Source: Myxococcales bacterium (GTDB lineage: Bacteria; Myxococcota_A; Polyangia; Polyangiales; Polyangiaceae). Taken from it: DNA of 44,125 bases. Below are positions 2,264-40,146 of this stretch, piece by piece; the first letter of the stretch is position 1; each line of letters starts with the position of its first letter. Where the stretch lies: assembly GCA_023248745.1 (NCBI GenBank), contig JAHFDZ010000010.1, positions 1-44,125 of the forward strand, given 5' to 3'. The position numbers and the translations under genes were made by a program. Below the pieces are notes generated by a model. It was not told the DNA's origin. It searched no databases and saw only the letters and a list, made by a program, of their open reading frames with translations.

Positions 2264-3199
2264 TCACTTCATGCGGTCAAAGCAATCTTGCGCGGCCACA
2301 ATATCGCGGCCAATTTGAGCCACAAGGTCATCCATTGACAGAAAGCGCTGTTCATCCCGCAGCCTGCTTAGCGTGCTCACTCGCAGCGTCTGACCATAGA
2401 GGTCGCCGACATAGTCAAGAATGTGAACTTCAACGGAGAGCTTTCGCTCGCCGCTGACGGTGGGCCTGTACCCAATATTGAGCACGCCGTTTCCAACACC
2501 TTCAACAACAACGGCGTAGACGCCACCCTTCGGGAGCATCTGCGCCACGTCTGCGAGGTTTGCGGTTGGGAAACCAAGTTGACGACCCAACTTCTGCCCC
2601 TCAACAACGCGGCCTGAAAAAAGATGAGGGCGGCCCAGAACGCGCGCAGCGGCGGCAACGTCACCGCGCTCAAGTGCTTGACGCGCACGTGTACTCGAGA
2701 AGGGCCCTTCGTCATCTGCCGCGAGCGAATGCACGTGAACTGAGAACCCGCGCGTTTGCCCGAGCAAGCCAAGTTGCTTCACATCACCGGCGCGCCCAGC
2801 ACCAAAACGAAAATTCTCCCCCAACATGACGGCCTTCGCGCCCAGAGGCACAAGAAGTTGGTCAACAAATTCCGCGGGTGAGAGCGCCGCGAACGCCAGG
2901 TCGAATTGCTGAACAAACACGTCGCGCGCACCCGCTTTGCCGAGCCATCGCGCGCGATCCTCAACCGTCGTCAAAAGTGCCGGAGCGCCGCTGCCCACCA
3001 CCGCCGCGGGGTGGGGGTCGAACGTTAGGACAGCTGGGCGAATCGTGATTCCGCTCTCTGCTGCAAGCTGGGCGAGTTCTCGCACCACGTGCTGGTGACC
3101 CAAATGGACACCATCGAAGTTACCAATGGCGATCGCTGTGTCGCCATCGAACGGCCCTTGGGTGCGCGCGTCCAGACCCGAAAGGCGAAATAGCTGCAC
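2264..3199 (-). CDS. ribF: Bifunctional riboflavin kinase / FAD synthetase RibF
   Basis: Converts riboflavin to FMN and then FAD in the cytoplasm. The N-terminal nucleotidyltransferase has the GNFDGVHLGH motif near residue 27 and the TFDPHP segment. The C-terminal riboflavin kinase domain has GRQLGFPTANL and GVYAV. The frame stays open upstream to 3448, but that would overlap the preceding lipoprotein gene by 155 bp. I chose the GTG at 3199 because it gives the normal family beginning (MQLFRLSG, then the GNFDG motif at the usual distance), a length of 311 aa close to other RibF proteins, and a GGTGA five bases upstream. GTG codons at 3208 and 3211 are alternatives. It lies about 95 bp after the lipoprotein gene. 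Confidence 0.95.
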   Translation of the reverse strand: MQLFRLSGLDARTQGPFDGDTAIAIGNFDGVHLGHQHVVRELAQLAAESGITIRPAVLTFDPHPAAVVGSGAPALLTTVEDRARWLGKAGARDVFVQQFDLAFAALSPAEFVDQLLVPLGAKAVMLGENFRFGAGRAGDVKQLGLLGQTRGFSVHVHSLAADDEGPFSSTRARQALERGDVAAAARVLGRPHLFSGRVVEGQKLGRQLGFPTANLADVAQMLPKGGVYAVVVEGVGNGVLNIGYRPTVSGERKLSVEVHILDYVGDLYGQTLRVSTLSRLRDEQRFLSMDDLVAQIGRDIVAAQDCFDRMK

Positions 3200-3293
3200 T
3201 TCATTCACCACAGCCCGCGACACTAGCAGCTTGCGCCAATCCGCATCACGAGTCTTACAGCCAACTCGGCGCAAGCCCCGACTCCGACTCAAC

Positions 3294-5033
3294 TCAATTC
3301 CAAAGCGTTCCCGCGTCAAAGCGAGCCTGTTCGTCTGCGTTGAGACAAGTTGCGCGATAGCGATCGGCAGCGGTGGCAAAAGGACTACCAGCACCGTCGC
3401 TTTGCTTCGCGAGAGCGTCTTTTCGGGTCGCGCAATAGCTCTTGTCAACGGCGGGTGAGACTTCGAAAAATGTGCTCTGAGAAGTTACTTTCGCACGCTT
3501 GCCGCATGTCTTGCCGTCAACGCTCTGTTCTTCGCCCCCGAGACAAATCCCCATCTCGTTGGGCATCGTCCACGCTTGCCCAGTGAGTGGATAGATGACG
3601 TTCATGGAGAACGCACCCGGCGGCAGGCATGCATACAGGATGCGCACGCCGTCTCGCTTGCGACCCACCTGCATTGCAACATCGTCAATTGTCTTTTCGA
3701 ATTCTCCTACCGTCGCAGCACCGGTCATATCGTTCTCGTAGGGAGTGACGACGGTGGTAGGACCCGATGGATCCGCCGGATCGGGAACGCAAATGATCGT
3801 TGGCCTGATGACGGCGGTAATGGAGCCCCGAGCCTCGGGCGTCAGAACGTTTCGAGCGATCAGCGACGTGAGGCGGCCGTCGGCCGTTGGGTCTGCGTTG
3901 TAAGCCGTGATCGCCGACGAAAATAGGCGTGGCTTGTCCTGCGTTGTGCGGCGATAGGGATCCTTCGCATCGAGCTTTGCAAACGTAATGAGAGGCCACA
4001 ATGCACGGGCGAGCGAGCTTCCGATAATGGTGTCGGTCGCATCAATGACGCCGTCGCGATTCGAGTCGTACGACTGGGTCAAGAGGACACCAGGTTTGGC
4101 GAGGGCGAGCGAGAACGGTTTGCCTTCTGCCGACACTCTTTCATCGGCGGGCACGCCCGCGGTGAGCCGCACCGAATACGTGAAGTCTTGTACGAACAAG
4201 GGGTTCGCATTCGGAACGTGAAAGTCAGAAGCGAGCGTAATTTTGTTGGGATTCGCAACTGGCGCAGGCGGGGTTCCGTCGGGCGTCAAAGGAGGCGCTT
4301 GCAACTGTGCGACGTGAAAAAAAGGACGCTGCGTCGGAAGCGGAAGCGCGAGAGCCACGCTCACGTTCTCGAGCACTTGCCCTTCGGGCCGAACGCAATA
4401 ACGTCGCCCGTCAGTCAACGCCCAGCTGGCACAACGCTTTGCAAGTTCGGCGTCAGTGCTCACGTCAGCCTTCGTGGGCTCGCCGATTGTGAGCACCGAG
4501 TAGGCCGGTTTTGCGCCCGCGAGCACGGCCGTGGCATTGGAAATCGCACCACCCGCGACGTCACCGAGAGTTGGCAGATTTGAGAACTTGAAGCTCGGAT
4601 GAAAGTCGCCGTCGTAGTCGTAAAACGCGCGCATCTGGTACGCGCCCGGATCGACAGGTCCTAACTCAAAGACACCACTAACGGTTACATTCGCAACACC
4701 TGCTGGAGGGCAGTACTTTGCGCCACTTGGCTCGAAGTACAGCGTACTCATCAAGTCGTGAAACAACACGTCACCTTGCACGAGCGCGAGGCGCGACGAA
4801 CGAGTTCCGAGACCATCGGGTGGCGGCAGAAGACGTGTGTCAAACAGAAGCAAATTCGCATTCCCGACAACGTGGCCCGCCTCGGTACAAGGCGGTGGTC
4901 CAGAATAGAGAACGGTGCCCTTCACGATGCCCACAGGCGGGATCACGTTGAGGGAAGGCGGCACAACGCACGCGACCGTCGTCGCAAACGCAGCCAGGGA
5001 CCCGAGGAGAATTTTTCGAATCATCCGTCGCAT
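3294..5033 (-). CDS. Putative lipoprotein next to TonB receptor
   Basis: A 579-residue exported protein. The N-terminus MRRMIRK, a hydrophobic run and TTVACVVPP suggest a signal peptide ending at a lipidated Cys near residue 22, although the lipobox is weak (T-V-A before the Cys). A beta-rich region follows with IVKGTVLYSG and FELGPVDPGAYQMRAFYDYDGD (only the family-like parts noted), which resembles carboxypeptidase-regulatory-like or other surface beta-sandwich folds. No catalytic motif is visible. It begins 9 bp after the TonB-receptor stop, with GAGGTG near that junction as the ribosome binding site. The two are therefore almost certainly co-translated, and this may be a surface partner of the receptor. 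The substrate is unknown. Confidence 0.75.
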   Translation of the reverse strand: MRRMIRKILLGSLAAFATTVACVVPPSLNVIPPVGIVKGTVLYSGPPPCTEAGHVVGNANLLLFDTRLLPPPDGLGTRSSRLALVQGDVLFHDLMSTLYFEPSGAKYCPPAGVANVTVSGVFELGPVDPGAYQMRAFYDYDGDFHPSFKFSNLPTLGDVAGGAISNATAVLAGAKPAYSVLTIGEPTKADVSTDAELAKRCASWALTDGRRYCVRPEGQVLENVSVALALPLPTQRPFFHVAQLQAPPLTPDGTPPAPVANPNKITLASDFHVPNANPLFVQDFTYSVRLTAGVPADERVSAEGKPFSLALAKPGVLLTQSYDSNRDGVIDATDTIIGSSLARALWPLITFAKLDAKDPYRRTTQDKPRLFSSAITAYNADPTADGRLTSLIARNVLTPEARGSITAVIRPTIICVPDPADPSGPTTVVTPYENDMTGAATVGEFEKTIDDVAMQVGRKRDGVRILYACLPPGAFSMNVIYPLTGQAWTMPNEMGICLGGEEQSVDGKTCGKRAKVTSQSTFFEVSPAVDKSYCATRKDALAKQSDGAGSPFATAADRYRATCLNADEQARFDAGTLWN

Positions 5034-5042
5034 GAGCGCACC

Positions 5043-7502
5043 TCAGAACGTGTATTGCATAAAAGCCATAAAGCGCCGCCCGACATAATTGGTAAACGGA
5101 TGCTCCTGGTGCACGCTATTGAGAATATTGAAACCGGTAATGCTTGCTTCAACTCGATTACCAGGAAAGCGATAGCCAACACGCGCGTTGAGCATCGCGT
5201 AGCCGGGCAACGGCAACGACTTATTCACGATCGCATTCACCGAGGAGTCGTAGTCACGTTCGACCCAATCTTGCGGCGAAACATAGTGAAAGATGATCTC
5301 TCCATCGAGCCCGATTTTCGAACGACCTTGCACGCCAAGATTGAGCTTGTGCATGCTCGTGCGCTGTTCTTCGACGACGTCACATCCAGCCGGATGCGTC
5401 GGCGACGATTTGTTGAGCGCATAGTTGGCAAAGACGTCGAGGCCTTCAATTGGATATGCCTTTACGCCAAGCTCACCACCGAGAACGTTGAGTTCATTGC
5501 ATGAATTGACGAATCCCGAATAGCCGGCCACATAACGTCCATTCGACATTTCGAAAAGAGGGTCGCCCAGTCGGTCCGAAGGCGTGACAGCTTGACTCGG
5601 GAGCAGGGTCGTCAAGTCGCTTACCCGGTTGTAGTAAGCAGCGAGCTCAAACTCGATGAAGTCGAGGTCGCGATTGAGATACGCCAACTCTGCGGTCAAG
5701 ATGCGCTCGGGCCTGAGCTGCCCGATTTTCATTGTGTTTGTGTTCGCCTCCACGGCGCCGATTGGCAGTTGCACCCCGAGGTCGGTGTACCCCTCCAGAA
5801 AGGTCGGCTTTCGAAACGCGAGGCTGAACGTGCCACGGATCGTGGACTTTTCGGTCGGGTGATAGAGCAGGGCTCCGCGTGGAGAACCTTCAAGTTTCTT
5901 CGTGTAAGGCACGTAGTCGAGGCGACCGCTCAACACGAGTTCGAGCTTCTTTGAAAACGAAATAGCGTCTTGCGCAAACAAGCCAAAGTGGTGCTCATCG
6001 CGACTTCCACCGGTGTAAAATGACGCTGCGTTTCGCAATCGGTAGTTCACACCGGCGTTTACGGCATTGCCAATTTTGCCAATGGTGAACTTATCGGCGT
6101 ATGCCACTTCGGCGTCGGCCACGTTGCCTACAATGGGCGTCGGAACCAGCGATTGGCCGACGTATCCACTTGCGGCGCTATTTTCGAATCGTTGAAAATT
6201 GTAAAAGGTTCGAAAGGTAACTTTTTTCGTATTGATAAATGCGGTGATGTCCCCGAATCGCCCAGTCGTGTTGAAATTCTTGAGTAGTCCCGTCGCATAG
6301 AAATCCAAAAACCCTTGCGAGTAACCGCCGCCGAGTCCGAACGATATGTCCTTCGAGATGCGTTGCGTCGCTCGCGCATCAAGCCGCAGAATCTCGGAAC
6401 CCAAGTTCTGATCGTTAGAGAACGTCTTTACGTCCGTGCGGCCGGGAGGAACCTCTCGGCTCCAGCGTGGATAGCGCGAGTATCCTGCGCTCATTTTGTA
6501 CGCAAAGTTTCCTTCACGGCCCGTCGCACGAAACGATCCATACGCCGATCCGTCGTACGAACCACCAAGGCGGGCATGGTTTTTTCCGGTTCCTGGTGCT
6601 TTGGTAATGATGTTGACGACTCCGGCAACCGCGTCCGCACCGTAGAGCGCGGAGCCCGGGCCTTTGACGACTTCGATGCGTTCGATCTGGTCAACGTCGA
6701 TGCTGAGCGTTTCCCAAAAAGTTCCACCGAACCAGTCGACATACACGGAGCGACCATCGACCAAGACGAGCACTTTGTTTGCGAGGCGCTGGTTGAGCCC
6801 ACGCATTGAGATATCGTGCTGAGCTCCCGACTCCGCAATAATGTCCGCGCCTGCAACACGACGCAGTAACTCGGGAATCTTTGTAATGCCCGATAGGCGA
6901 ATATCTTGTTCTGTAATGATCGCAACGGAGCTCGGAGCGTCGAGCGGACTGAGCGCCGCGCCGCGCGAAGCGGTAACGACGGCTTCTTCGTAGACGCCTT
7001 CGGTACGGGCGGGCGCAACACCCTTAGGTTTCTTGTTGCCGGGTACTGGGAGAGGCGGAATTGGATCAATAGGATTTTTAGGGACGGATACCGGATCGTG
7101 GCCGGGGTCTGGAACGACCGGATCCTTCTTTTGGGCGGCCGCTTGCTGTGCTTTCTGCCGATCGAGTCGAACCTGAAGCTGCGCAACGATTTGAGTCGCT
7201 TCTTCTTTGTCGGGTTGATTTTGCTCGATGTAACTTCGGTAATAGGAAATGGCTGTTTCAATATCGCCGAGTTCTACGTACGCCCGTGCAATATTATAAA
7301 TAACGTTTGGGTGCGGCAGAATATCGTTGGCTCGCTTGAGTTCGCTAATGCCAACTTCATAGTTGCCATTGCCGATCGCAGCCATGCCCTTTCGAAAGTG
7401 GACACGAGCTTCCGTGCGAGCGTCACCCCACGCGGTGCCAGACAAAAGGCCCAAGGCGAAAACCGCACTGCATGTTACGCGACCAATGAGGCGCTTTCGC
7501 AC
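5043..7502 (-). CDS. TonB-dependent outer-membrane receptor with N-terminal TPR region
   Basis: An 819-residue outer-membrane transporter. A signal peptide ends near residue 26 (SGTAWG). Residues about 28-110 form two or three TPR-like units (NYEVGISELKRA, NVIYNIARAYVELGD). Residues about 120-165 are a Lys/Gln- then Pro-rich linker. The plug starts near 171 (YEEAVVTASR) and contains LVLVDGRSVY and IERIEVVKGPGSALYGADAVAGVVNI split across adjacent strands. The rest is the beta-barrel, ending in the aromatic FMQYTF expected for BAM recognition. The start is GTG with a strong AAGGAGGAG just upstream. The periplasmic TPR before the plug is unlike classical siderophore receptors. The ligand cannot be told from the sequence. 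It is followed directly by a lipoprotein gene. Confidence 0.93.
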   Translation of the reverse strand: MRKRLIGRVTCSAVFALGLLSGTAWGDARTEARVHFRKGMAAIGNGNYEVGISELKRANDILPHPNVIYNIARAYVELGDIETAISYYRSYIEQNQPDKEEATQIVAQLQVRLDRQKAQQAAAQKKDPVVPDPGHDPVSVPKNPIDPIPPLPVPGNKKPKGVAPARTEGVYEEAVVTASRGAALSPLDAPSSVAIITEQDIRLSGITKIPELLRRVAGADIIAESGAQHDISMRGLNQRLANKVLVLVDGRSVYVDWFGGTFWETLSIDVDQIERIEVVKGPGSALYGADAVAGVVNIITKAPGTGKNHARLGGSYDGSAYGSFRATGREGNFAYKMSAGYSRYPRWSREVPPGRTDVKTFSNDQNLGSEILRLDARATQRISKDISFGLGGGYSQGFLDFYATGLLKNFNTTGRFGDITAFINTKKVTFRTFYNFQRFENSAASGYVGQSLVPTPIVGNVADAEVAYADKFTIGKIGNAVNAGVNYRLRNAASFYTGGSRDEHHFGLFAQDAISFSKKLELVLSGRLDYVPYTKKLEGSPRGALLYHPTEKSTIRGTFSLAFRKPTFLEGYTDLGVQLPIGAVEANTNTMKIGQLRPERILTAELAYLNRDLDFIEFELAAYYNRVSDLTTLLPSQAVTPSDRLGDPLFEMSNGRYVAGYSGFVNSCNELNVLGGELGVKAYPIEGLDVFANYALNKSSPTHPAGCDVVEEQRTSMHKLNLGVQGRSKIGLDGEIIFHYVSPQDWVERDYDSSVNAIVNKSLPLPGYAMLNARVGYRFPGNRVEASITGFNILNSVHQEHPFTNYVGRRFMAFMQYTF

Positions 7503-11597: not shown

Positions 11598-12698
11598 CTA
11601 CCAGCCCGGATACTTGGCCTCGTTCGCCTCGCAGTCGAACGAGGCACTGCGAACGGCCGCAAGATCGCACGCAATCTCATCGATGACTTCGCGGAGTTCG
11701 AGCGATGCGATCCATCGGATTGGAATCACGTCGTCTCCATGAATCGTTCCGAGAAGCGCCCCAACGAGAGAGCCCGTAGAGTCGGAATCGCCACTGTGAT
11801 TCACCGCGAGTCGCACGCCGTGTTCGAAGCTCTTCGCAACGAGCGCGACATAGAGTGCAATCGCGAGTGCCTCCTCGCCAGTCCAGCCGCCGCCGAGCAC
11901 CTCAAGATCGCCGATCGATGGCTCGGCAATTTTCGACGCGAGCTGGAGCGATCCATCAATGGCACGCGAGACCTCGCTTGAATGTGCATGCGCGCGCAAC
12001 GTTGCACGCGCAGCATCGATTGCAGCAAGCAGCGTGTGGCCTTCGACGATCGATGCAATAATCTGCGCGAAGACGGCGCCCGCGAGATACCCTGTCGGAT
12101 TTCCGTGCGTGCATGCAGACACTTCTTTGCCGATGTCGAAGGCGGGATTCGACGCACCATCCGCCGTCGCGGAAGGATAGAGAAGTCCAACAGGCGCGAC
12201 ACGCATGATGGCGCCACATCCTTTCGAATCGTTTTCGGCAACCGTACCGAGCGTGTCCGCGCGCGACAACGCCGCCAAACACGTATTTCCCGGACCCCGT
12301 CGCGACCAAAGTTCACGATGCGTGACAAGCCAACCGTCTGGCGCACGCTGCTTTTGAAACTCCTCAATCGACATCACGGTCTTTGAACGCTGCGTGGCAT
12401 ACCAGCGAAGGTACGCAGCGTGGACAACGCTCGGCGGATGGCAGATTCCTTTCGACGCTTGCCGCACCTTGGCGCGGACCAATCCTTCGGCAGTGAAGAG
12501 CGTCATCTGCGTGTCGTCGGTGATCGCACCGATCCTTCCGTACGCGAGGTCAAACTCCTCGAGCCCACTTGGGCCGTAGCGCGCACGGATCGCATCGAGC
12601 GTCATGAACTCGATCGGTGCTCCCAACGCATCTCCGACGGCGCCGCCGAGCAAGCAGCCACGAATGCGCGCCGCAATGTTTGGCCTGATCCGCCCCAC
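11598..12698 (-). CDS. ADP-ribosylglycohydrolase (DraG) family protein
   Basis: A 366-residue enzyme predicted to remove ADP-ribose from a protein or small molecule. The family motifs are clear: GCLLGGAVGDALGAPIEF near residue 14, the metal-binding ITDDTQMTLFTAEGL near 60, and the second metal motif NHSGDSDSTGSLVGALLG near 305. All metal-coordinating Asp/Thr positions I can place are kept. The start is GTG at 12698 with AGGA a few bases upstream. It lies 23 bp after the PEGA-domain frame of the kinase locus on the same strand, so co-transcription with the kinase is likely. The substrate is unknown. Confidence 0.92.
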   Translation of the reverse strand: MGRIRPNIAARIRGCLLGGAVGDALGAPIEFMTLDAIRARYGPSGLEEFDLAYGRIGAITDDTQMTLFTAEGLVRAKVRQASKGICHPPSVVHAAYLRWYATQRSKTVMSIEEFQKQRAPDGWLVTHRELWSRRGPGNTCLAALSRADTLGTVAENDSKGCGAIMRVAPVGLLYPSATADGASNPAFDIGKEVSACTHGNPTGYLAGAVFAQIIASIVEGHTLLAAIDAARATLRAHAHSSEVSRAIDGSLQLASKIAEPSIGDLEVLGGGWTGEEALAIALYVALVAKSFEHGVRLAVNHSGDSDSTGSLVGALLGTIHGDDVIPIRWIASLELREVIDEIACDLAAVRSASFDCEANEAKYPGW

Positions 12699-15289: not shown

Positions 15290-16294
15290 GTGACTCCCGA
15301 AGGCGCGCTCGACAACGCTCGCACAGGGTCGCTCAAGCCGGTCTACATCGTAACCGGAGATGAGCGATTTATCGTCGATGAGGTACGCGACACGCTTCGC
15401 AACGCCGCAATCGGTGCGGCAATCGCTGCCTTCAACGAAGACAAATTCACGGCCGGCGAGTCCGACATCAAACGCGTGCTCAGCGCATGCCGCACGCTTC
15501 CGATGATGGCCGCCAGAAGATTCGTGCACGTGCGCACCATCGAGCGATGGGACGGTGCCGAAGCGCTCGATGAGCTCGCGGCCTACGCAGAGGCTCCCAA
15601 CGAATCGACGTGCCTCGTCATCACGGGCGAAAAAGTTGATGGAAGACGCAAGCTTGCAACACTAGGAAAGAAGCTTGACTACAACGTAGTCTGCAACACG
15701 CTTGACGATCGCGCCATCGTCAAATGGATCGTCGCAAGATCACAAAAACTCGGCCACGCGATCGATCAAGAAGCAGCGCAGCTCATTTGCCAACTTGTCG
15801 GTCCCACTCTCGGATTTGTGAACGATGCGATCGATCGGTTGACGCTCTACGTTGGCCCTGGCCAACCGATCACAGAAGAGGCGATCGCGCTGTGCATTGT
15901 GAGACTACGCACCGCCGATGTGTGGGCGCTCGTCGACGCTGCCGGACAGCGCAACTTGTCGCTTGCGCTCTCTTTGCTCGCAGATGTGTATGACCCACGC
16001 GATCGCGGCCTACCCATGCTCGGTGCACTCGCGTGGTCGGTGCGGCAATTTCTCAAGTTTGCGCTCGCACTCGAGTCGGGCCAAAGCGCTGACGCCGCCG
16101 GACGCACCGCCAACATTTTTCCTGCAGGCAAAGTTCGTGATTTCACACTGCGCGCAAAAACGCTGCGGGCGCGCGACGCCGAACAATGGCTCGTCGTGCT
16201 CGCTGAAACCGATGCTGCCTTGAAGAGTTCGCGCAGACCGGCTGACTCCATTCTTGAAGAAGCCCTCGTTCGGTTGTGCAGACAGCGAGCGTGA
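15290..16294 (+). CDS. holA: DNA polymerase III subunit delta
   Basis: A 334-residue clamp-loader subunit that opens the sliding clamp. It has the HolA layout: an N-terminal AAA-like fold beginning SLKPVYIVTGDERFIVDEV, the TLPMMAARRFVHVR strand, and a C-terminal collar domain with the typical MLGALAWSVRQFLKF segment near 245. As usual for delta, there is no working Walker motif. The start is GTG at 15290. The stop is directly followed (1 bp) by the ATG of the B12-binding regulator, so the two are coupled. The family is poorly conserved in general, but this match is clear. Confidence 0.9.
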   Translation: MTPEGALDNARTGSLKPVYIVTGDERFIVDEVRDTLRNAAIGAAIAAFNEDKFTAGESDIKRVLSACRTLPMMAARRFVHVRTIERWDGAEALDELAAYAEAPNESTCLVITGEKVDGRRKLATLGKKLDYNVVCNTLDDRAIVKWIVARSQKLGHAIDQEAAQLICQLVGPTLGFVNDAIDRLTLYVGPGQPITEEAIALCIVRLRTADVWALVDAAGQRNLSLALSLLADVYDPRDRGLPMLGALAWSVRQFLKFALALESGQSADAAGRTANIFPAGKVRDFTLRAKTLRARDAEQWLVVLAETDAALKSSRRPADSILEEALVRLCRQRA

Positions 16295-16295
16295 C

Positions 16296-17135
16296 ATGGA
16301 CATCATCTCCACCAAAGAAGTTGCCGAGGTCCTGGGCGTGAGTGAAGCAACCGTCAAGCGGTGGGCGGACGCCGGCACGCTGAAGTGCTTTCGAACAGTC
16401 GGTGGCCATCGCAAATTTCGTCTGCGCGACGTTCGTGAATTTCTTGGCGGGCAGATGATCGCGCGCGAAAGCCTCGATGTCCTGCACGCTTCAGCAGATC
16501 CACCGACGCACGAACAGGTCGAAGCGCGAACGCTGGCGCTTTCGTCAGACGTCGATGGTCTCGTATCGCTCATTGCAAATGAACGAATGAAGGGCCAATC
16601 GCTCGCCCATGTTTTCGACGACGTTATCGCGCCAGCGATGTCGAGCATCGGCGAAGCGTGGGCCGCAGGCAAGTTGACTACCGCACAAGAGCACGTCGCC
16701 TCGAACGCCCTCATTGAAGCGATCGCACGCGTGAGACCATTGGTCGAGCGCCCTTCGCGACACGATCGCGGGCGCGCCATTTGTACCTGCATTGGTGACG
16801 AACAGCACGATATCGGCGTTCGAGTCGTCGGGCTCATTTTGTCGGCCGAAGGATTTCGAACCTCAATGCTCGGCGGCAACGTCCCAACCACCGACATTGC
16901 GCTCATGGTCGCAAGCGAGCAGCCGGCATTGGTTGCGCTAAGCGCTTCGGGTCACGCCAATCTCGACCGTTTGCGAAGCGACGTAGCGATCGTCGCTGGC
17001 GCCGCAGCCGCTTCAAAGACACGTGTTCTCGCCGGCGGACACGGTTTCGCACGGCTTCCTAGCGTGCCCAGCAATGTTTCAAGGTTCTTCAAACTGCAGG
17101 AATTTGTGACGCTCCTGAGAGAGCCAAAGACTTGA
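16296..17135 (+). CDS. MerR/BldC-like regulator with CarH-type cobalamin-binding domain
   Basis: A 279-residue predicted transcription factor. Residues 1-50 are a helix-turn-helix with wing (VSEATVKRWADAGTLKCFRT, then GGHRKFRLRDV). About 75-150 is the four-helix cap domain with W122-x9-E132-H133. About 160-275 is a Rossmann-type B12-binding domain with E169-x-H171-x-x-G174. These match the W-x9-EH and ExHxxG motifs of CarH, the light sensor that uses adenosylcobalamin. The residue after the Trp is Ala, where Thermus CarH has the His that binds cobalt in the light. The ATG at 16296 gives the proper N-terminus. Light or B12 sensing is inference; the target promoters are unknown. Confidence 0.88.
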   Translation: MDIISTKEVAEVLGVSEATVKRWADAGTLKCFRTVGGHRKFRLRDVREFLGGQMIARESLDVLHASADPPTHEQVEARTLALSSDVDGLVSLIANERMKGQSLAHVFDDVIAPAMSSIGEAWAAGKLTTAQEHVASNALIEAIARVRPLVERPSRHDRGRAICTCIGDEQHDIGVRVVGLILSAEGFRTSMLGGNVPTTDIALMVASEQPALVALSASGHANLDRLRSDVAIVAGAAAASKTRVLAGGHGFARLPSVPSNVSRFFKLQEFVTLLREPKT

Positions 17136-17292
17136 ATTTACTTATAAAATCGGAAAATGCGGCCAGGCAGCGATCGCCTCAGCCGCACAGGTTGCCCCTT
17201 TACTTTCTCTGAAGACGCCTCAACCTTTGTCGTTGCGGCCAAGCCCAAGGCGAGCCACAAAACAAGTTCCTACCGAATTGGAGTATTCCGAG

Positions 17293-31315: not shown

Positions 31316-32584
31316 TCAGCGCGGCTTGCGCTGGTACGCAGGAACATCCCAATCCGTGTCAAAGGACGGAAAGTCCGACGTAGTCGCGGGACGCGCAGGT
31401 ACGCGAACCGACGACGCTGCGCCACGCGACTCGTGCGCGTGCGCTGGGCGGCGTGAGCTCGCGAAGGCTGGTGAACTCGATGGCTCGTAAGAGCGAACCG
31501 ATGGCGCGGGCGCGATAAACGAAGGTCGCGACGCGGGTATGTGCGAATGCGCCTGCTGCTGTTGAGGGGGCGCGACTTGCGAACGCTGGGTGACTTCGTG
31601 AATCGTGTGCTGTTCGACGACTTCGAAACCCGTTGCAATGACAGTGACCTTGACACTCTCACCGAGTGTTTCGTCGATGGTCGCGCCGAAAATGACATTC
31701 GCGTCTTCGTTCGCTTGCTCTTGAATGAGCGAGGTCGCCTCGTGGATTTCGCTCATCTTCAGGTCGGGGCCGCCGACAATGTTGATAAGGACACCGTTGG
31801 CTCCCGCCACTGAGATGTCGTCAAGAAGCGGCGATGCCACAGCCATTTCGGCAGCCTGACGCGCTCGGTTCTGACCCTTTGCAACGCCGGTTCCCATGAG
31901 GGCGCGACCTTGGCCAGCCATGACCGTTCTTACGTCGGCAAAATCGACATTGATTAGGCCAGTTTGGGTAATGAGATCGCTGATGCCTTTGATCGCTTGA
32001 TAGAGGACTTCGTCGGCTTTTCGACACGCTTCGATAAACGTGAGTTCATCGTCGCCGAGAAGAAGCAGTTTTTGGTTCGGGATCGTGACCAACGTATCGA
32101 CGTTCTCAGCAAGCATCGCGAGGCCGATTTCTGCGCGACGTGAGCGTTGGCGACCTTCGAAGAGAAAGGGCTTGGTGACCACCCCAACCGTAAGAGCACC
32201 CTCTTCACGCGCCAGTTGTGCAATCACCGGTGCCGCTCCGGTACCCGTTCCGCCACCCATACCGGCCGTGATGAACACCATATCTGCGCCGGAAATGAGC
32301 TCCTTTAGGCGAGGCACATCTTCGAGCGCCGCTTTGCGACCCCGTTCGTGATCCGCACCCGCACCGAGGCCGCGCGTTACCGTGTTGCCAATGTTGATCT
32401 TGGTCGGAGCCGCGTTCGCATTGAGCGCTTGCGCGTCTGTATTGACGACGATGAACTCCACGCCCTCAAGGCCGAAGTTGATCATTGTGTTGACGGCATT
32501 GCCGCCCGATCCGCCGACGCCGATCACCTTAATGCGCGCTTGGTATTCTTGCGTATCATCGGCAAAATCAATTGAGAAACTCAT
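31316..32584 (-). CDS. ftsZ: Cell division protein FtsZ
   Basis: The tubulin-like GTPase that forms the Z ring. This 422-residue protein has the N-terminal GVGGSGGNAVN near residue 22, the signature GGGTGTG at 110-116, and the T7 loop NVDFADVRTVM near 210 that completes the neighbour's active site. A variable linker rich in Gln, His, Pro and Ser follows. The conserved C-terminal peptide (TDWDVPAYQRKPR) binds FtsA and other partners. A very strong GGGAGGAT precedes the ATG, in a 140-bp gap after ftsA that may hold its own promoter. Confidence 0.99.
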   Translation of the reverse strand: MSFSIDFADDTQEYQARIKVIGVGGSGGNAVNTMINFGLEGVEFIVVNTDAQALNANAAPTKINIGNTVTRGLGAGADHERGRKAALEDVPRLKELISGADMVFITAGMGGGTGTGAAPVIAQLAREEGALTVGVVTKPFLFEGRQRSRRAEIGLAMLAENVDTLVTIPNQKLLLLGDDELTFIEACRKADEVLYQAIKGISDLITQTGLINVDFADVRTVMAGQGRALMGTGVAKGQNRARQAAEMAVASPLLDDISVAGANGVLINIVGGPDLKMSEIHEATSLIQEQANEDANVIFGATIDETLGESVKVTVIATGFEVVEQHTIHEVTQRSQVAPPQQQQAHSHIPASRPSFIAPAPSVRSYEPSSSPAFASSRRPAHAHESRGAASSVRVPARPATTSDFPSFDTDWDVPAYQRKPR

Positions 32585-32724
32585 GTGAATATCCTCCCGG
32601 ATTTTTCGTTCATCAAACGCAAAAATGTGGTTCGCCTCAACCGCACTAATGCGCGCAAATCAGTCCTTTAAAGGTTATGGAACTGGTACTCGAAATTTGT
32701 GACTTTCCGTCTGGTGATCACCTG

Positions 32725-34005
32725 TCAGAACGCAGCGCGAAGCCAGTTCCACAAGCCTGAACCCTTTTTTGGGGCAACATCCGAATGTTGCGGACGCCCT
32801 TCACGCCGGGGAGCGGCCGTGCCTGCTGATTGTGCCGGCACGTAGTGAGCGTCACTAATCGCTTGAGCGCCGTACTTTACGAGACCCACCGCAGTCGCGT
32901 ACTCGGGCCCATGAACAAGCTGGGTGATGCCTTTGATACCCGTTGGCAGACCCACTCGAACAGGCATGCCGAGGATCTCTTCGGCGAATTCGATCATCCC
33001 CGGTAGCAAAACGGATCCACCGGTAATGACGGCACCCGCCGCGAGCTGCTCGAGCATGCCGGTCGCCTCGATGCGCTGGCGAGCCGCGGCAAAAATCTCT
33101 TCGACGCGCGGTTCGATGAGATCGCTGAGCACACGCCTTGCGGCACGACGCGGAGGGTGTCCTCCGACACCGGGTACCTCAATCTCTTCGTCATCGGCAA
33201 CCATGCGCCCAAGAGCGCACCCTGCAAGACGCTTCAACCGATCGGCCTCGGCGATGGGCGTGCGAAGACCGTGCGCAACATCGCTTGTGATGTACTGACC
33301 GCCGACTGGAATCACGCTTGTGTGCGCGATGCCTCCGTCAACGTAGAGGAGAAGATCGGTGGTGCCGCCGCCAATGTCGATGACCGCAACGCCAATTTCT
33401 TTCTCGTCATCGGAGAGAACAGCTTCCGAACTCGCGAGAGGCTGCAGCACGACATCGGCAACCGTAAGGCCACAGCGCTCTGCGCAACGGATAACATTTT
33501 GCACACAATTGGTTGCAGCGGTGACGAGGTTGACCGCAACCCCTAGGCGCACGCCGCTGATGCCAATCGGATCACGAATGCCATCTTGGCTGTCGACCGT
33601 GTATTCGCGCGGAAGCACGTGCAGAATTTGCCTATCGGCATCGATCGGAATCGCACGCGCGCCTTCGAGTGCGCGCTCCACATCGGTGCGAGACACCTCG
33701 CCATTGCTGATGGCAGCGACTCCGTCGGAGATTTGCGAGCGAACGTGACTGCCGGCGATGCCTGCGTAGACCGTGCGAATCTCGACACCCGCCATGGTTT
33801 GAGCGGCGTCAATCGCATCGCGAATTGATCGCACCGTCCAGTCGATGTTAACGACGATGCCACGTCGCAAGCCACGACACGGTGACGTGCCAACGCCAAG
33901 GATCGTGATGCCATCCGCGTCGACTTCGCCCACTACGGCACAGACTTTCGTCGTGCCGATATCGAGCCCAACGACAATTTCGCCCTGCGAGTGTGCGTTG
34001 CTCAT
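32725..34005 (-). CDS. ftsA: Cell division protein FtsA
   Basis: An actin-like ATPase that ties FtsZ to the membrane. It is 426 residues from the ATG at 34005 (MSNAHSQG); an upstream ATG at 34026 would add seven. Motifs are VVGLDIGTTKVCAVVG at the N-terminus (phosphate 1), the phosphate-2 motif VIDIGGGTTDLLLY, and the adenosine motif AVITGGSVLLPGM. The C-terminal amphipathic helix GLWNWLRAAF is the membrane anchor. It follows ftsQ with a stable hairpin between them and precedes ftsZ, the standard order. Confidence 0.98.
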   Translation of the reverse strand: MSNAHSQGEIVVGLDIGTTKVCAVVGEVDADGITILGVGTSPCRGLRRGIVVNIDWTVRSIRDAIDAAQTMAGVEIRTVYAGIAGSHVRSQISDGVAAISNGEVSRTDVERALEGARAIPIDADRQILHVLPREYTVDSQDGIRDPIGISGVRLGVAVNLVTAATNCVQNVIRCAERCGLTVADVVLQPLASSEAVLSDDEKEIGVAVIDIGGGTTDLLLYVDGGIAHTSVIPVGGQYITSDVAHGLRTPIAEADRLKRLAGCALGRMVADDEEIEVPGVGGHPPRRAARRVLSDLIEPRVEEIFAAARQRIEATGMLEQLAAGAVITGGSVLLPGMIEFAEEILGMPVRVGLPTGIKGITQLVHGPEYATAVGLVKYGAQAISDAHYVPAQSAGTAAPRREGRPQHSDVAPKKGSGLWNWLRAAF

Positions 34006-34089
34006 CGTATGGTTCGAATCGCACACTCAAATAAGTCGGGCCAAGAATTCGCGAAAAACTTGTCCTACTAGCGACTACTCATATTGCGG

Positions 34090-34115
34090 GAGGGGGGAGG
34101 AAGCCTTCCCCCCTC
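34090..34115 (-). promoter_or_regulatory. Strong hairpin between ftsQ and ftsA
   Basis: The 26 nt form an 11-bp stem (GAGGGGGGAGG paired with CCTTCCCCCCTC, allowing one G-T wobble at the tenth pair) around a four-base loop AAGC. It starts 8 bp after the ftsQ stop. No T-run follows on the minus strand, so it is not a classical terminator. A processing, stabilising or attenuating element is possible. Confidence 0.55.
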
Positions 34116-34123
34116 GACCGTTT

Positions 34124-34981
34124 CTACCGCATGCGGACGACGATTCGATCTGGACGCGCTTCGTTATCGAGGAGCACGAGGTCTGCCCGGTTTGAGCGAC
34201 GTTCCGTTTCATCGATCACCCGCGCGGCTTGAACCAACTTCCGGCGGAAAGGTGGCGATCCAAGGCGGAGCGTGAGGCCATCCTTGCCCACGACGGCACT
34301 CATCGCTTCATCGGTCGCAAAGTGAATCTCTTGCAATGGGTATTTCTTGTCGAGTGCGCTGTCGGCATATGCCGCGGTTAGTTCCGATGCTTGACGAATG
34401 AGGCGTTCAGCGCCCGCACGATCGGCCGTAAAACGATCGAGCGTGAGTCCGACGACCAGAGGCAATTCTTGCGGATCGGTCGCCTCGAGCGGCTTAAAGA
34501 TCTGTCCCTCAGCGGTCGCCAAATAGACGCGCTCAAGTGCAACCATCAGCGCGGCTTGGCGTTCCTTCACCGCGATACGGATCGTTGACGGTAACTCTCG
34601 GGTGATGATGACTTCACCGAGCCAAGGATCCTTGAGCAACGCGCGTCTTGTGCTGTCGGGATCGACTCGAAAAATGTTATCGCCTTCGTGAACGCCCGAC
34701 TCGGCTGCAATGACGTCCGCTTTTCGGACCCGCGCGCCTTGAACTTCAATTTTTTTTATCGTCAACCGTGGTGACGTCGTCGCATAGCTCCTCAGGCAGA
34801 GCGCACCGGCCGACGAAAGTGCACCGAGCACGAGAGCACCGGAAATGAAGCGCATCGCCCGCAAGAACCGCCCAGTCTTGGGCGCCGCCGCGTGATTGAA
34901 GTCGAGCTGCTGCTGTCCCACCTCCTCGACCTGAGGCGCGCTTTTTTGCACACGCGTTCGCCGATTGAGGGGTGGAGCCAT
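34124..34981 (-). CDS. ftsQ: Cell division protein FtsQ
   Basis: A bitopic divisome protein of 285 aa. It has a short cytoplasmic N-terminus and one transmembrane helix near 43-65 (FISGALVLGALSSAGALCL). A POTRA domain starts at LTIKKIEVQGARVRKADVI, with GVHEGDNIFRVD and DPWLGEVIITRELPSTIRI. The FtsQ beta-domain then runs to the end. It would bind FtsB/FtsL in the periplasm. It lies 55 bp after murC, where murB and ddl are found in many other clusters. Confidence 0.93.
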   Translation of the reverse strand: MAPPLNRRTRVQKSAPQVEEVGQQQLDFNHAAAPKTGRFLRAMRFISGALVLGALSSAGALCLRSYATTSPRLTIKKIEVQGARVRKADVIAAESGVHEGDNIFRVDPDSTRRALLKDPWLGEVIITRELPSTIRIAVKERQAALMVALERVYLATAEGQIFKPLEATDPQELPLVVGLTLDRFTADRAGAERLIRQASELTAAYADSALDKKYPLQEIHFATDEAMSAVVGKDGLTLRLGSPPFRRKLVQAARVIDETERRSNRADLVLLDNEARPDRIVVRMR

Positions 34982-35036
34982 CGTTACCTCGGGATCCTTG
35001 CTCTCTTCAGGATGAGGACAAAGACCTTAGAGTCGT

Positions 35037-36470
35037 TCAGGGTGACAGCGTGGAAAGCAGTTCTCGAACAGATGCGTTAATGTCACCTGCTCCGAGTGCG
35101 ATCACCATGTCGCCCGGTTCGAGGAAACTGAGCAACTTTCGTGCGACCTGCTTCTTATCGGGCACGTAGTGAACTGCATGGTGACCGTGAGCACGAATCG
35201 CGCGTGCGAGCGCTTCGCCACTTGCGCCTTCGATCGGTGTCTCGCCGGCGGGATACACTTCGGTAACAAGCAGCAGGTCGGCTTTGTTGAATGCGCGCGT
35301 AAATTCCTCGAAGAGTGCCTGCGTCCGCGAATACCGATGCGGTTGAAAAGCCACAACGACGCGCCGATCAAACCCGCGCTGCGCTGCGTCGAGTGTCGCT
35401 TCGACCTCAGCAGGATGGTGGCCATAATCGTCAACAAGGAGGACATCTCCATCACGGCCATTTTTGGAGAACTTTGGCGACCCCACAATCGTGAAGCGCC
35501 GCTGAACCCCACGGAACGATTCGAGTGCGTCACGCGTCACACTCAGAGGAACTTCGAGTTCGTCGGCGACCGCCACGACCGAAAGCGCATTCAGAACATT
35601 GTGCGCACCGGGCATGTGAAGCGTGAATTCGCCCAACGACTCGCGAGCCCGCATCACTTCAAACGTCGTGAGTAGACCGTTGAACCGAATATTGCGCGCT
35701 CGAAAATCGGCCTGCTTCGACGCACCATAGGTGACATACCGACGCTCGATGCGCGGCAAGATGGCTTGAACGTGCGGGTGGTCGATGCAAAGAACGTTGA
35801 GGCCGTAGAACGGTACGCGATTGGCGTGCTCAACAAATGCATCCTTGATCCGCTCATGCGTTCCGTAGTGATCGAGATGCTCGGCATCGATATTGGTGAT
35901 CACGGCGATGGTGGGCGTGAGTTTCAAAAATGAGCCATCACTTTCGTCGGCCTCGGCAACAAAGAGATCGCCAGCGCCGAGGCGCGCGTTCGAACCCAAC
36001 GAATTGACCTTTCCGCCAACAACCACCGTTGGATCAAGACCCGCAGCGCGAAGAACTGTCGCGACGAGAGAGGTCGTCGTCGTTTTGCCGTGTGACCCGG
36101 CAATCGTAACGTTGTATTTTACACGCATCAGTTCCGCGAGCATTTCGGCCCGAGGAATGATTGGGATCTCGAGTGCTTGAGCCCGAACAAATTCGACATT
36201 CTCGCGTGAGATCGCGCTCGAATAGACCACCACATCTGCGCCTTCAACATGCGCTGCCGCGTGCCCGAAAAGGATGCGAACTCCCAATCCTTCGAGCCTC
36301 TTTGTGTTGTCGTTTCCCTTGAGATCGGAGCCGGAAACGTCGAAGCCGAGCGTGCAGAGAATCTCTGCGAGACCACTCATGCCGATGCCACCCACGCCAA
36401 TGAAGTGAACGTGCCGTACGCGACCGCGAAACATGCCTACGTTGGTACTCGCGCTGCGACCGTGAGTCAT
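35037..36470 (-). CDS. murC: UDP-N-acetylmuramate--L-alanine ligase
   Basis: Adds L-Ala to UDP-MurNAc, the first amino acid of the stem peptide. This 477-residue protein has the N-terminal HFIGVGGIGMSGLAEIL Rossmann motif, the ATP loop GSHGKTTTTSLV near 125, and the middle-domain ADESDGSFL and DAEHLDHYG motifs. The C-terminal domain has DDYGHHPAEVEATL. The ATG at 36470 lies 8 bp after the murG stop; Met 13 (MFRGRVRHVHFIG) is an alternative start. No murB fusion is present. Confidence 0.98.
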   Translation of the reverse strand: MTHGRSASTNVGMFRGRVRHVHFIGVGGIGMSGLAEILCTLGFDVSGSDLKGNDNTKRLEGLGVRILFGHAAAHVEGADVVVYSSAISRENVEFVRAQALEIPIIPRAEMLAELMRVKYNVTIAGSHGKTTTTSLVATVLRAAGLDPTVVVGGKVNSLGSNARLGAGDLFVAEADESDGSFLKLTPTIAVITNIDAEHLDHYGTHERIKDAFVEHANRVPFYGLNVLCIDHPHVQAILPRIERRYVTYGASKQADFRARNIRFNGLLTTFEVMRARESLGEFTLHMPGAHNVLNALSVVAVADELEVPLSVTRDALESFRGVQRRFTIVGSPKFSKNGRDGDVLLVDDYGHHPAEVEATLDAAQRGFDRRVVVAFQPHRYSRTQALFEEFTRAFNKADLLLVTEVYPAGETPIEGASGEALARAIRAHGHHAVHYVPDKKQVARKLLSFLEPGDMVIALGAGDINASVRELLSTLSP

Positions 36471-36478
36471 CTCACGAT

Positions 36479-37543
36479 TCAGCGTTGCGCGAGCTGGATG
36501 AGATCGTCCGCAACGTCGACGGCCGCGGTCGGTCGACCCAATGTACGCGCGGCTTGCGCCATTGCTCTTAGGCGACCGCGATCGTCAAGCAGGTGACCTA
36601 TTTGGTGTTCGAGCCAATTGCTTGTGGCGATCTCTTGGCGTGCCCAAGCGGCAGCGCCAGCCGATCCCAACGCCGCGGCGTTCTTCGCTTGATGATCGTC
36701 GGCAGCATGCGGGAAAGGCACTAGCAATGATGGTCGCCCGATCGCGGTGATTTCAGCTAAGGTGACCGCACCTGCGCGCGAGACGATCAAGTGTGCTTCT
36801 CTAAGCGCGCGCGGCATATCGTCAAGAAACGGAACGACGTTGACGCGATCCTCGCCATCATAGGCAACGCGAACCGCAAGCTCGTCCGTGGGGCCCGATT
36901 GATGAATCACCGAGAGCGAAGGAAAGCGCCCGAGCAATCGCCTAACCGCTGGGGGGAGACGTTCGTTGAGCGCGCGAGCGCCTTGACTGCCACCTAGCAC
37001 GAGAAGCACCTGTGGCTCAGACGGCGGATACGTTGCACTCGAAAATCCAGAGCGAAGCGGAACACCCAAAATTTGCGCGAAAGATACGCGTGCTGCAACC
37101 TCTGGATATGCGGCGTACAGGCGCTTGGCAAAACGTAACAACACACGTTGTGTAAGGCCCATCACTGAATTTGGTTCAAGCAACGCAAGCGGAACGAACG
37201 AAAGCGATGCTGCGAGCGAGACCGGTCCTGCGGCGTATCCTCCTACGCTCAGAACGACGTCTGGTTTGCACCGTCGCAACAGGCCAAGCGCCGTGAACAT
37301 CGACGCACCCGCGGAGATCATGTTGAGAAAGGCCCTCGTCGACTGCACGCCCTTGAGCGGTTCAATCTCCATGAGTTCAAGATCGAAGCCCGCCTTCGGG
37401 ACCACTTGCACTTCTTGCCCCTTAGCGGTTCCCACAAATGTAACTGTTGCTGCGTATTTTTGGCGAAGAACCTCTGCGACAGCGAGAGCCGGATAAACGT
37501 GTCCGCCGGTTCCTCCACCTGCGATAAGCACGCGCACCGTCAA
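36479..37543 (-). CDS. murG: UDP-GlcNAc:lipid I N-acetylglucosaminyltransferase MurG
   Basis: Makes lipid II on the inner face of the membrane. This 354-residue GT28 enzyme has the Gly-rich loops GGGTGGHVYPALAVAE at the N-terminus and GGYAAGPVSLAAS near 103, and the third loop VLGGSQGARALNERLP near 183. The donor-sugar region SRAGAVTLAEITAIGRPSLLV (split at the Gly) follows. The length is typical. Its start overlaps the ftsW stop by 4 bp (ATGA). Confidence 0.98.
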   Translation of the reverse strand: MTVRVLIAGGGTGGHVYPALAVAEVLRQKYAATVTFVGTAKGQEVQVVPKAGFDLELMEIEPLKGVQSTRAFLNMISAGASMFTALGLLRRCKPDVVLSVGGYAAGPVSLAASLSFVPLALLEPNSVMGLTQRVLLRFAKRLYAAYPEVAARVSFAQILGVPLRSGFSSATYPPSEPQVLLVLGGSQGARALNERLPPAVRRLLGRFPSLSVIHQSGPTDELAVRVAYDGEDRVNVVPFLDDMPRALREAHLIVSRAGAVTLAEITAIGRPSLLVPFPHAADDHQAKNAAALGSAGAAAWARQEIATSNWLEHQIGHLLDDRGRLRAMAQAARTLGRPTAAVDVADDLIQLAQR

Positions 37544-38790
37544 TCCTCGGCTCCGAGAAGATCGGGCATGTCTGTTGAACGTGCGCTTGGCTCTAACGCT
37601 TCGTGACGCTCATTGCGAGAAGGCGCTTCCTGCACTTGCCTCGTGATGCTGAGCAAAATGCCCACCGCGGCGGCGTTCACGAGCAGTGACGATCCCCCGT
37701 AGCTGACGAACGGCAGGGTGAGGCCCTTGGTCGGCAGAATCGCAAGCGCGACCGATAGGTTGACGAGGGTCTGGACCGCAAAGAGTGCCGAAATGCCAAA
37801 CGCGAGATAGGAACCGAAATCGTCGGGCGCGCGCAGGGCCGCACGAATTCCGCGCGCGCAAAGTACGACGTACACCAGCGAGAGCGACAGAATTCCGATG
37901 AAGCCAAGTTCCTCACCAATAATGGCGGACACGAAATCTGTATGTGCCTCTGGCAAATACAAAGTTTGAAGGCCGCGCCCAAGTCCAACGCCGTGGAAAC
38001 CTCCGGAGCCGAACGACATCACCGATTGAAACGGTTGGTACGCGAGATCTTGCCGGTGCTTCTCCATATCGGCCCAAGCGAGATAGCGCGCAAAGCGGTA
38101 AGGCGAATACCTGACCGCAAGGATGGCGAGTCCGCCGCCCGTCAGAATTGCACCCATGATGTATCCAATCTTCGCGCCTGCCATAAAGAGGAGCGTGAAG
38201 GTCAGAAGCAAGAGCACAACGGCGCTACCGAAGTCGGGTTGCTTGAGACACAGCAACATCAAGAATCCGGCAACGATGAGATGCGGAAGGAAACCGACGG
38301 TAAAGGACTTTACCTTGTCGGCCTTCTTTGCCAGCGAATACGCTAGCCAAATGATCAGCGCGAGCTTTGCAACTTCGGCGGGTTGCACATTGATAATGCC
38401 CAGGCGAAGCCACCTTGCAGCGCCTCCACCACGATGACCTAGACCAACGATTGTCGCGATGAGCATCGCAATTACGGAAAACAGAACCGGATACGTCAGC
38501 TTGTAGAGGCGATGGTAGTCAACTTTGCTGACAATTGCCATGACCGTGAGAGCAGCGACGCTGTAGCCAAATTGTTTGAGCAAGAAGTACTGTGGATCGT
38601 GCCTCGTTACGGTCGCGAAGATCTCTGAGGCGCTGTAGACCATCACGAGACCAAAACCGATGAGCGCGATCACGACCGCTCCCAGCACTTGATCGACGGG
38701 CCCCGTAACCCTCGATTCCACCGGCGCAGCATCGAGAGGTGCGGCCAAGATGGTTCTCACGTTCGTTCGCAAATTTCGTGCGAAGGTCAT
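37540..38790 (-). CDS. ftsW: Septal peptidoglycan polymerase FtsW
   Basis: A SEDS-family glycosyltransferase with about ten transmembrane helices. It is 416 aa from the ATG at 38790, which overlaps the murD stop by 4 bp; the longer frame upstream lies inside murD. Diagnostic parts are GLVMVYSASEIFA, RWLRLGIINVQPAEVAKLA (around the conserved Gln-Pro), the extracellular loop FHGVGLGRGLQTLYLPEAHT, then DFVSAIIGEELGFIG and LPFVSYGGSSL. The active-site Asp lies in the EAHTDF segment. It should work with a class B PBP (ftsI), which is not in the window. Confidence 0.96.
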   Translation of the reverse strand: MTFARNLRTNVRTILAAPLDAAPVESRVTGPVDQVLGAVVIALIGFGLVMVYSASEIFATVTRHDPQYFLLKQFGYSVAALTVMAIVSKVDYHRLYKLTYPVLFSVIAMLIATIVGLGHRGGGAARWLRLGIINVQPAEVAKLALIIWLAYSLAKKADKVKSFTVGFLPHLIVAGFLMLLCLKQPDFGSAVVLLLLTFTLLFMAGAKIGYIMGAILTGGGLAILAVRYSPYRFARYLAWADMEKHRQDLAYQPFQSVMSFGSGGFHGVGLGRGLQTLYLPEAHTDFVSAIIGEELGFIGILSLSLVYVVLCARGIRAALRAPDDFGSYLAFGISALFAVQTLVNLSVALAILPTKGLTLPFVSYGGSSLLVNAAAVGILLSITRQVQEAPSRNERHEALEPSARSTDMPDLLGAED

Positions 38791-40139
38791 CGCGCCCCCA
38801 GCTTGAGCACCGCCTCGGAAAAGGCATCGCCCCGCTCTTTGTAGTCGCGAAACATGTCGAAGCTCGAGCACGCCGGCGAAAGCAAAACGGCATCACCCGA
38901 GATCGCAAACTTCTGGGCAGCAAGCACCGCCTCACGCATCGAAGTCGCACGCGCTGTCGGCACTCTCCCTTCGATGGCTTTGTCGATCGCTAGCGCAGCT
39001 TCGCCGATGAGTACGGCGCCCCGACCGCGAGCCACAAGCGCGTCGACAAGCGGAAGGTAGCTGCCGCCCTTGTCACGGCCGCCCGCAATGAGCACGATTC
39101 GTGGCTCGCTGAGCCCGAGCACGGCCGTGACGGCGGCGCCAACATTCGTGCCTTTTGAGTCGTCGTAGTAGCGCACACCGTCAAGCTCGCGAACGAACGT
39201 TGTGCGATGCGGAAGCCCGCGAAACGTAGCGAGCGTTTCGCGAATCGCATCCGGTTTCACACCAAACTTTGTCACGCATGCAATCGAAGCAGCCACGTTG
39301 AGTGCGTTATGTCCGCCCGCAAGCAGGAAGGAGCGCCGATCGTAGCGTTCGCCAGAACGCCGATCGATCACCGCGGTATCGGTGAGGTCGACATCGCCGC
39401 CAGGACCAAACGTCACGTGCTTGCCAAGACCGCGTGAAGCTTGAGCTGCGCAAATGAGATCACTTACGGGTACAATTGCTTCATCGCCCACTTCTTGGCG
39501 AAGAAACGCGTTACCTTTTGCGTCCGCATAAGCTTCAAAAGACGTGTACCGATCGAGATGATCCTCAGACACATTGAGAAGAAGCGCGCTCGCCGGGTGA
39601 AACCGATCAACGCGCTCCATCTGGAAACTTGAAACCTCGACGACCAGGTAGTCGAACACGTCGTCGACGTGATCCGCGAGTGGCGTGCCGAGATTGCCAC
39701 CGACAAAGACTCGCCTTCCGCTTGTTCGCAGAAGGTCTCCAATGAGCGTCGTTGTTGTCGATTTCCCGTTCGTGCCACCGACCGCAATCACCGGGACAGT
39801 CTCCGCAACGAAGCGCGTTGCAAGTTCGACCTCACCCCAAACCAGAATGCCGCTCGCTTCGGCACGCTTCAGGGCCGAAAAAGATGGGACGCCAGGAGAA
39901 ACGAGCACAACGTCAACATCCTTGACTTGCTCAAATGCACTCGGCCCACAGATCAGCGGAACCCCGAGCGCTTCGAGCGTTCGGGCATACGCGCCCAGCT
40001 GATGGAGAGGCTTCTGGTCGAAACCCACAATGCGTGCACCACGTCGGAGCAGCAGCCTCGCAGCGGCGGCGCCACTGATGCCCAGTCCGACAACCGCGAC
40101 GCGCTTGCCGGCGATCGAAGTTATGGTTGAAGAGGACAT
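38787..40139 (-). CDS. murD: UDP-N-acetylmuramoylalanine--D-glutamate ligase
   Basis: Adds D-Glu to UDP-MurNAc-L-Ala. This 450-residue protein has the N-terminal AVVGLGISGAAAARLLLRRGA fold (split after residue 20 of the match), the ATP loop GGTNGKSTTTTLIGDLL, and EVSSFQME and NVSEDHLDRY in the central domain. The C-terminal domain has YYDDSKGTNVGA and ends near SFDMFRDYKERGDAF. All Mur-ligase marks are present. The start is ATG, 7 bp after the mraY stop is reached in the opposite reading order of the cluster. Confidence 0.98.
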   Translation of the reverse strand: MSSSTITSIAGKRVAVVGLGISGAAAARLLLRRGARIVGFDQKPLHQLGAYARTLEALGVPLICGPSAFEQVKDVDVVLVSPGVPSFSALKRAEASGILVWGEVELATRFVAETVPVIAVGGTNGKSTTTTLIGDLLRTSGRRVFVGGNLGTPLADHVDDVFDYLVVEVSSFQMERVDRFHPASALLLNVSEDHLDRYTSFEAYADAKGNAFLRQEVGDEAIVPVSDLICAAQASRGLGKHVTFGPGGDVDLTDTAVIDRRSGERYDRRSFLLAGGHNALNVAASIACVTKFGVKPDAIRETLATFRGLPHRTTFVRELDGVRYYDDSKGTNVGAAVTAVLGLSEPRIVLIAGGRDKGGSYLPLVDALVARGRGAVLIGEAALAIDKAIEGRVPTARATSMREAVLAAQKFAISGDAVLLSPACSSFDMFRDYKERGDAFSEAVLKLGAR

Positions 40140-40146
40140 GGTGCGT

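Follow-up and report, generated by a model that had tools for sequence, protein, structure and literature searches.

The holA locus and its regulator gene

The window analysed here, a stretch of 44,125 nucleotides from a Myxococcales bacterium of the Polyangiaceae (contig JAHFDZ010000010.1), contains a gene for a B12-binding regulator of the HTH_17/BldC type at positions 16296 to 17135 of the plus strand. As noted in the preliminary description, the gene lies between holA and ribA. All three run in the same direction. The upstream gene holA encodes DNA polymerase III delta (PF06144/PF21694; 15290 to 16294, plus strand), and its stop codon is separated from the regulator start by 1 bp. The GTP cyclohydrolase II gene ribA (PF00925; 17293 to 17991, plus strand) follows behind a gap of 157 bp.

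The translation of 279 amino acids begins with MDIISTKEVAEVLGVSEATVKRW, and the ATG start is conserved in the orthologs. Orthologs with 88, 83, 58, 58 and 48% identity, together with a low dN/dS within the genus, show that the reading frame is not a chance product; an antisense ORF overlapping it (16010 to 16906, minus strand) was taken as a shadow ORF. Within the genus, dN/dS was approximately 0.05-0.07 for the full length, 0.007-0.015 for the DNA-binding domain, 0.034-0.058 for the cobalamin domain and 0.17-0.31 for the linker, values that are rough because dS exceeds 1. Both domains are under strong purifying selection. A search of viral contigs for relatives returned short matches to the DNA-binding domain only.

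The protein consists of an N-terminal DNA-binding domain (amino acids 3-50; 16302 to 16445), a cap four-helix bundle (amino acids 82-150; 16539 to 16745) and a Rossmann-type B12-binding domain (amino acids 158-255; 16767 to 17060), corresponding to the Pfam matches HTH_17 (1.4e-13), B12-binding_2 (2.8e-10) and B12-binding (1e-11). The first domain was also supported by NCBIfam, a PDB sequence search and alignment, the second by predicted helices and a PDB profile alignment, and the third by the latter as well. Translation and alignment confirmed the earlier reading of the motif residues: W122 and A123 (16659 to 16664) occupy the position of W131-H132 in Thermus CarH, E132-H133 (16689 to 16694) completes the Wx9EH motif, and E169-Q-H171-D-I-G174 (16800 to 16817) represents the lower axial cobalt ligand motif.

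Elsewhere in the window, the minus strand carries a gene for a TonB-dependent receptor of 819 amino acids with an N-terminal TPR stretch, next to an unknown protein of 579 amino acids (3294 to 7502); relatives of this pair adjoin a kinase in two other genomes (G014, G063), and its best NCBIfam resemblance is to the TOL_0244 family, below cutoff. An ADP-ribosylglycohydrolase family protein (PF03747, 3.4e-72; 11598 to 12698, minus strand) is encoded near a Ser/Thr kinase gene, and a cell-division and cell-wall cluster (31316 to 44116, minus strand) comprises ftsZ, ftsA, ftsQ-like, mur ligase, murG-like, ftsW-like and mraY-like genes.

Relationship to CarH and CtMerR

The best PDB match over both domains was CtMerR of Chloracidobacterium thermophilum (8JBS; E 4.7e-29 with the single sequence, 5e-37 with a profile), followed in the sequence search by photocobilins, CarH and methionine synthase. 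BldC structures matched the DNA-binding domain (6AMA and 6AMK by sequence, 6AMA also by fold), which together with the HTH_17 match bears out the proposed BldC/MerR-type domain. An AlphaFold2 model was weak (pLDDT 58) and built from three close sequences, so the ranks obtained with it in Foldseek, full-length TtCarH first, CtMerR second and then photocobilins, are supporting only. In the model, W122 ends one predicted helix (103-123) and E132/H133 start the next (129-150), as in CarH, at low confidence. The placement of the W-EH region in the cap helix bundle is carried mainly by sequence alignment to CarH and CtMerR, with which these helices agree.

The preliminary description had called the protein CarH-like, which holds for the architecture, but the name CarH itself is too strong. 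It scored 67.9 bits against the 400-bit cutoff of the NCBIfam CarH model NF052513. The RxWERRY recognition helix of the CarH MerR winged helix is absent; the regulator has VKRWADAG instead, and the best Pfam match of its DNA-binding domain is HTH_17. In a tree of the cobalamin domain, the protein falls outside the canonical WERRY-type clade: the WERRY proteins cluster together (90/78), separately from a holA-linked group (93/82), both with moderate supports. On these grounds, judged from sequence, the regulator is not a CarH by strict definition. Its resemblance to BldC is limited to the domain (55 bits against a cutoff of 77 for NF033787).

Within the cobalamin domain, the CarH motif ExHx2G-x41-SxV/T-x22-27-GG reads E169-x-H171-x2-G174-x41-S216-A-S218-x28-GG247, with Ser for Val/Thr at S218 and a spacing to GG that is one residue longer. 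The light-responsive signature defined by SignatureFinder is present at GxxW, EH and GxxxP, while the GxxH position holds D168 with the Gly one residue upstream (G167). The CarH dimer salt bridge R176-D201 corresponds to Q170-N195 in the regulator and to Leu-Asn in CtMerR.

With CtMerR, the regulator shares a BldC/HTH_17-like DNA-binding domain with a VKRW helix, fused to a cobalamin domain with the Wx9EH cap and the lower axial His, and the lack of a His after the Trp. It differs in having Ala where CtMerR has Arg, in lacking GxxH, in its setting between holA and ribA, and in its clade, CtMerR being a long single branch apart from the holA-linked group. Its likeness to CarH of Thermus thermophilus and Myxococcales comprises domain order, Wx9EH, ExHxxG and GG, whereas RxWERRY, His132 and the Arg-Asp dimer pair are missing and the host genome lacks a phytoene synthase. 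In the photocobilins SasPcob and AbDPcob, too, the second His is absent from a light-sensitive cobalamin domain (Gln and Tyr, respectively), but these proteins contain a bilin-binding domain and no HTH domain. The sequence evidence identifies the protein as a genuine B12-binding regulator of the CarH/CtMerR type, with adenosylcobalamin (AdoCbl) binding predicted, and it presumably works like CtMerR or CarH.

The Ala after the Trp had been regarded as a mark of an unusual protein, a view that did not survive comparison. In the eight intact orthologs at the holA locus this residue is Ala, Ala, Ala, Thr, Phe, Ala, Ala and Phe, so that none of the seven other copies has His. All intact copies retain the Trp, the Glu and the His, the cobalt His, and also S216 and GG; for the G063 copy, the alignment covers the 3-prime portion of the gene only. 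Among the sampled relatives in the alignment, 8 of the 15 proteins whose DNA-binding domain is of the WERRY type, TtCarH among them, have His; no HTH_17-type protein does, and CtMerR has Arg. The literature points in the same direction: many, not all, myxobacterial CarH proteins carry the His (PMC9304148), and a LitR paper of 2016, cited in PMC9758184, calls it semi-conserved in its title. As far as these comparisons go, the His-less condition is ordinary for the lineage and no peculiarity of the window protein.

The earlier suggestion of a light response with a different end state has a published precedent, since CtMerR, with Arg at this position, changes from a tetramer in the dark to a monomer in the light (PMC11796333; PDB 8JBS/8JBT). 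Dissociation by light without the His is not guaranteed: reports on TtCarH H132A conflict, with disassembly described earlier and, later and by one group, a mostly tetrameric state in the light with a hydroxo-Co(III) product (PMC10442372). Three further HTH_17-type proteins (L017, L077, L083) keep the Trp and have ER for EH and Tyr or Phe for the cobalt His, an apparent further loss of B12 binding.

Linkage to ribA and decayed relatives

Twelve genomes were compared at the holA locus, eight with an intact cobalamin pocket (the G063 copy being split across two contigs) and four with a decayed one. In all eight intact orthologs the regulator gene is adjacent to and co-directional with ribA, and the pair is kept even in G029, where holA is approximately 1.3 kb away from the regulator. 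The downstream RibA of the window passes the RibA cutoffs (212.9 against 205.85; 232.5 against 148). Of the three proteins with a GTP cyclohydrolase II domain found in the genome, it is the only one to do so. The second is RibB; its C-terminal domain reaches 71.7 against the cutoff of 205.85 and lacks the C-x10-C-x-C seen in RibA, and the third belongs to PRK07198/NF005536 and fails the RibA models. Because neither of these qualifies, the linked ribA was ruled out as an accessory copy.

Two further observations concern flavin and GTP cyclohydrolase genes. A RibF-like flavokinase/FAD synthetase gene is located in the window at 2264 to 3448 (minus strand), with relatives close to holA elsewhere in the family; this fits either a clustering of flavin-related genes or simple synteny of housekeeping genes. 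On contig C293 of G000 (L163), an NF005536-type GTP cyclohydrolase II is followed by a second protein of 405 amino acids; we take this to be possibly a uracil-catabolism pair of the URC1/URC4 kind.

The other four genomes (G026, G065, G018 and G019; loci L011, L068, L012 and L013) have holA and the regulator, with no ribA downstream in any of them. Their DNA-binding domains are 77% identical to that of the window protein and 98-100% identical among themselves, while the cobalamin domains share 18-33% identity with the window protein and have lost the Trp, the cobalt His (replaced by Ser, Tyr or Asn) and the GG motif. The contrast between intact copies, which always have ribA next to them, and pocket-less relatives without this linkage is new. 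Since the decayed four form a single clade (100/100) on a long branch in the cobalamin domain tree, the association counts as one or two events and not as twelve observations. In keeping the DNA-binding domain and losing the Trp, they resemble the B12-independent CarA of Myxococcus xanthus, which, however, keeps the B12-binding motif, whereas the four lost the cobalt His too; the window protein is not decayed. They may represent a further, independent origin of CarA-like regulators.

The search for an operator, as recommended earlier, found none in the window. The 157-bp gap between the regulator gene and ribA (17136 to 17292, plus strand) is the candidate site of a ribA promoter or operator; in a consensus scan, sigma-70-like promoters upstream of ribA turned up in two relatives, G029 and G079, but not in the window. 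Upstream of the regulator in the pooled relatives, 10 direct repeats with a period of 9-13 were counted against a shuffle mean of 2.5, a number reached in 2% of shuffles. This excess is modest, the matches are overlapping windows from three genomes (G014, G026, G079), and no such repeats occurred within the regulator-ribA gaps; we do not claim them as an operator.

Adenosylcobalamin, light and the probable mode of action

The remark that no carotenoid gene is nearby can be extended to the entire assembly (95% complete), in which no match to the phytoene synthase family was found. This genome and two others of the same genus that carry the regulator gene (G001, G003) yielded no phytoene synthase, photolyase, CobS or cobalamin riboswitch, absences that are provisional, as the genomes are draft MAGs of 88-95% completeness. 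What makes the regulator unusual is the riboflavin gene next door and its survival in a genus without the usual light-protection targets.

Our preferred reading, held with reasonable though not high confidence, is an AdoCbl-dependent, CtMerR-like transcriptional regulator that most likely represses its own regulator-ribA unit. The apo form would be inactive or loosely associated. AdoCbl would bind base-off with H171 as lower ligand, the adenosyl group being capped by W122, E132 and H133, and binding would lead to oligomerisation and to DNA binding through the BldC-like domain, most likely with repression of the regulator-ribA unit as the outcome. Light would cleave the Co-C bond, and because no His follows W122, the product should be aquo- or hydroxocobalamin and not the bis-His form; the oligomer would probably dissociate or loosen all the same, as CtMerR does. 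Besides the match to CtMerR, the retained pocket residues, the selection on both domains and the linkage to ribA, this reading is favoured by a protein of the cob(I)alamin adenosyltransferase family encoded in the genome. Points against this mechanism are the GxxH signature position, the dimer salt-bridge residues, the lack of an operator in the window, and crtB and photolyase going undetected in the genus.

The missing light-linked targets tilt the balance towards the B12 level as the signal, without settling it. A sensor of the AdoCbl level with incidental light sensitivity, which would match either the flavin supply (through ribA) or a regulon related to B12 to the AdoCbl available, is a less probable but serious alternative. 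It accommodates the target-free and riboswitch-free genus, the purifying selection and the single RibA that passes its cutoffs. It also agrees with the B12 inventory: the genome encodes one MetH-sized B12 protein and several other proteins with B12-binding domains, and in six genomes whose copy is intact (G000, G001, G003, G029, G014, G079) a B12-binding_2 domain occurs in just two proteins, the regulator and one large MetH-like protein. Against it, the pocket contains the residues on which the light sensitivity of CarH and CtMerR depends, so that illumination would affect the protein in any case; crtB, and in some cases photolyase, is found in related genera that carry this gene; the absences come from draft MAGs; and the logic linking B12 to riboflavin is speculative. 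In its most specific form, a CarH-type light receptor lineage re-used to sense the AdoCbl level and to govern ribA, and with it the committed step of riboflavin synthesis, where the genus has no photoprotection targets or cobalamin riboswitches left, the idea is tentative and somewhat less likely still.

A classical light repressor acting in trans on carotenoid or photolyase genes, with targets lost in the genus of the window only, appears improbable. The crtB-family proteins occur in G029, G014, G063, G079 and G032, and G029, G014 and G079 have no other CarH-like candidate. Yet strong selection persists where these targets are missing, no crt or photolyase gene adjoins the regulator in the compared loci, and on the only contig holding both (C190 of G014) it is approximately 39 kb away from crtB. 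A reading on the pattern of M. xanthus CarA, in which the window protein acts without B12 and its cobalamin domain is vestigial, is very improbable: its four decayed syntenic relatives have clearly reached such a state, but this protein and the remaining intact orthologs keep every AdoCbl-contact residue, with an omega of ~0.03-0.06 for the cobalamin domain.

For the preferred AdoCbl-dependent regulator and its relatives, the comparison has consequences beyond the locus. The bis-His histidine should not serve as a criterion for recognising B12 light sensors or for ruling them out, as it tracks the canonical WERRY lineage in our sample. The holA locus offers a natural series within one bacterial family, running from intact to decayed pockets beside a DNA-binding domain that has hardly changed, and the loss of B12 control could be dissected along it. 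Finally, the locus ties a B12 sensor to riboflavin synthesis, a connection that is directly testable.
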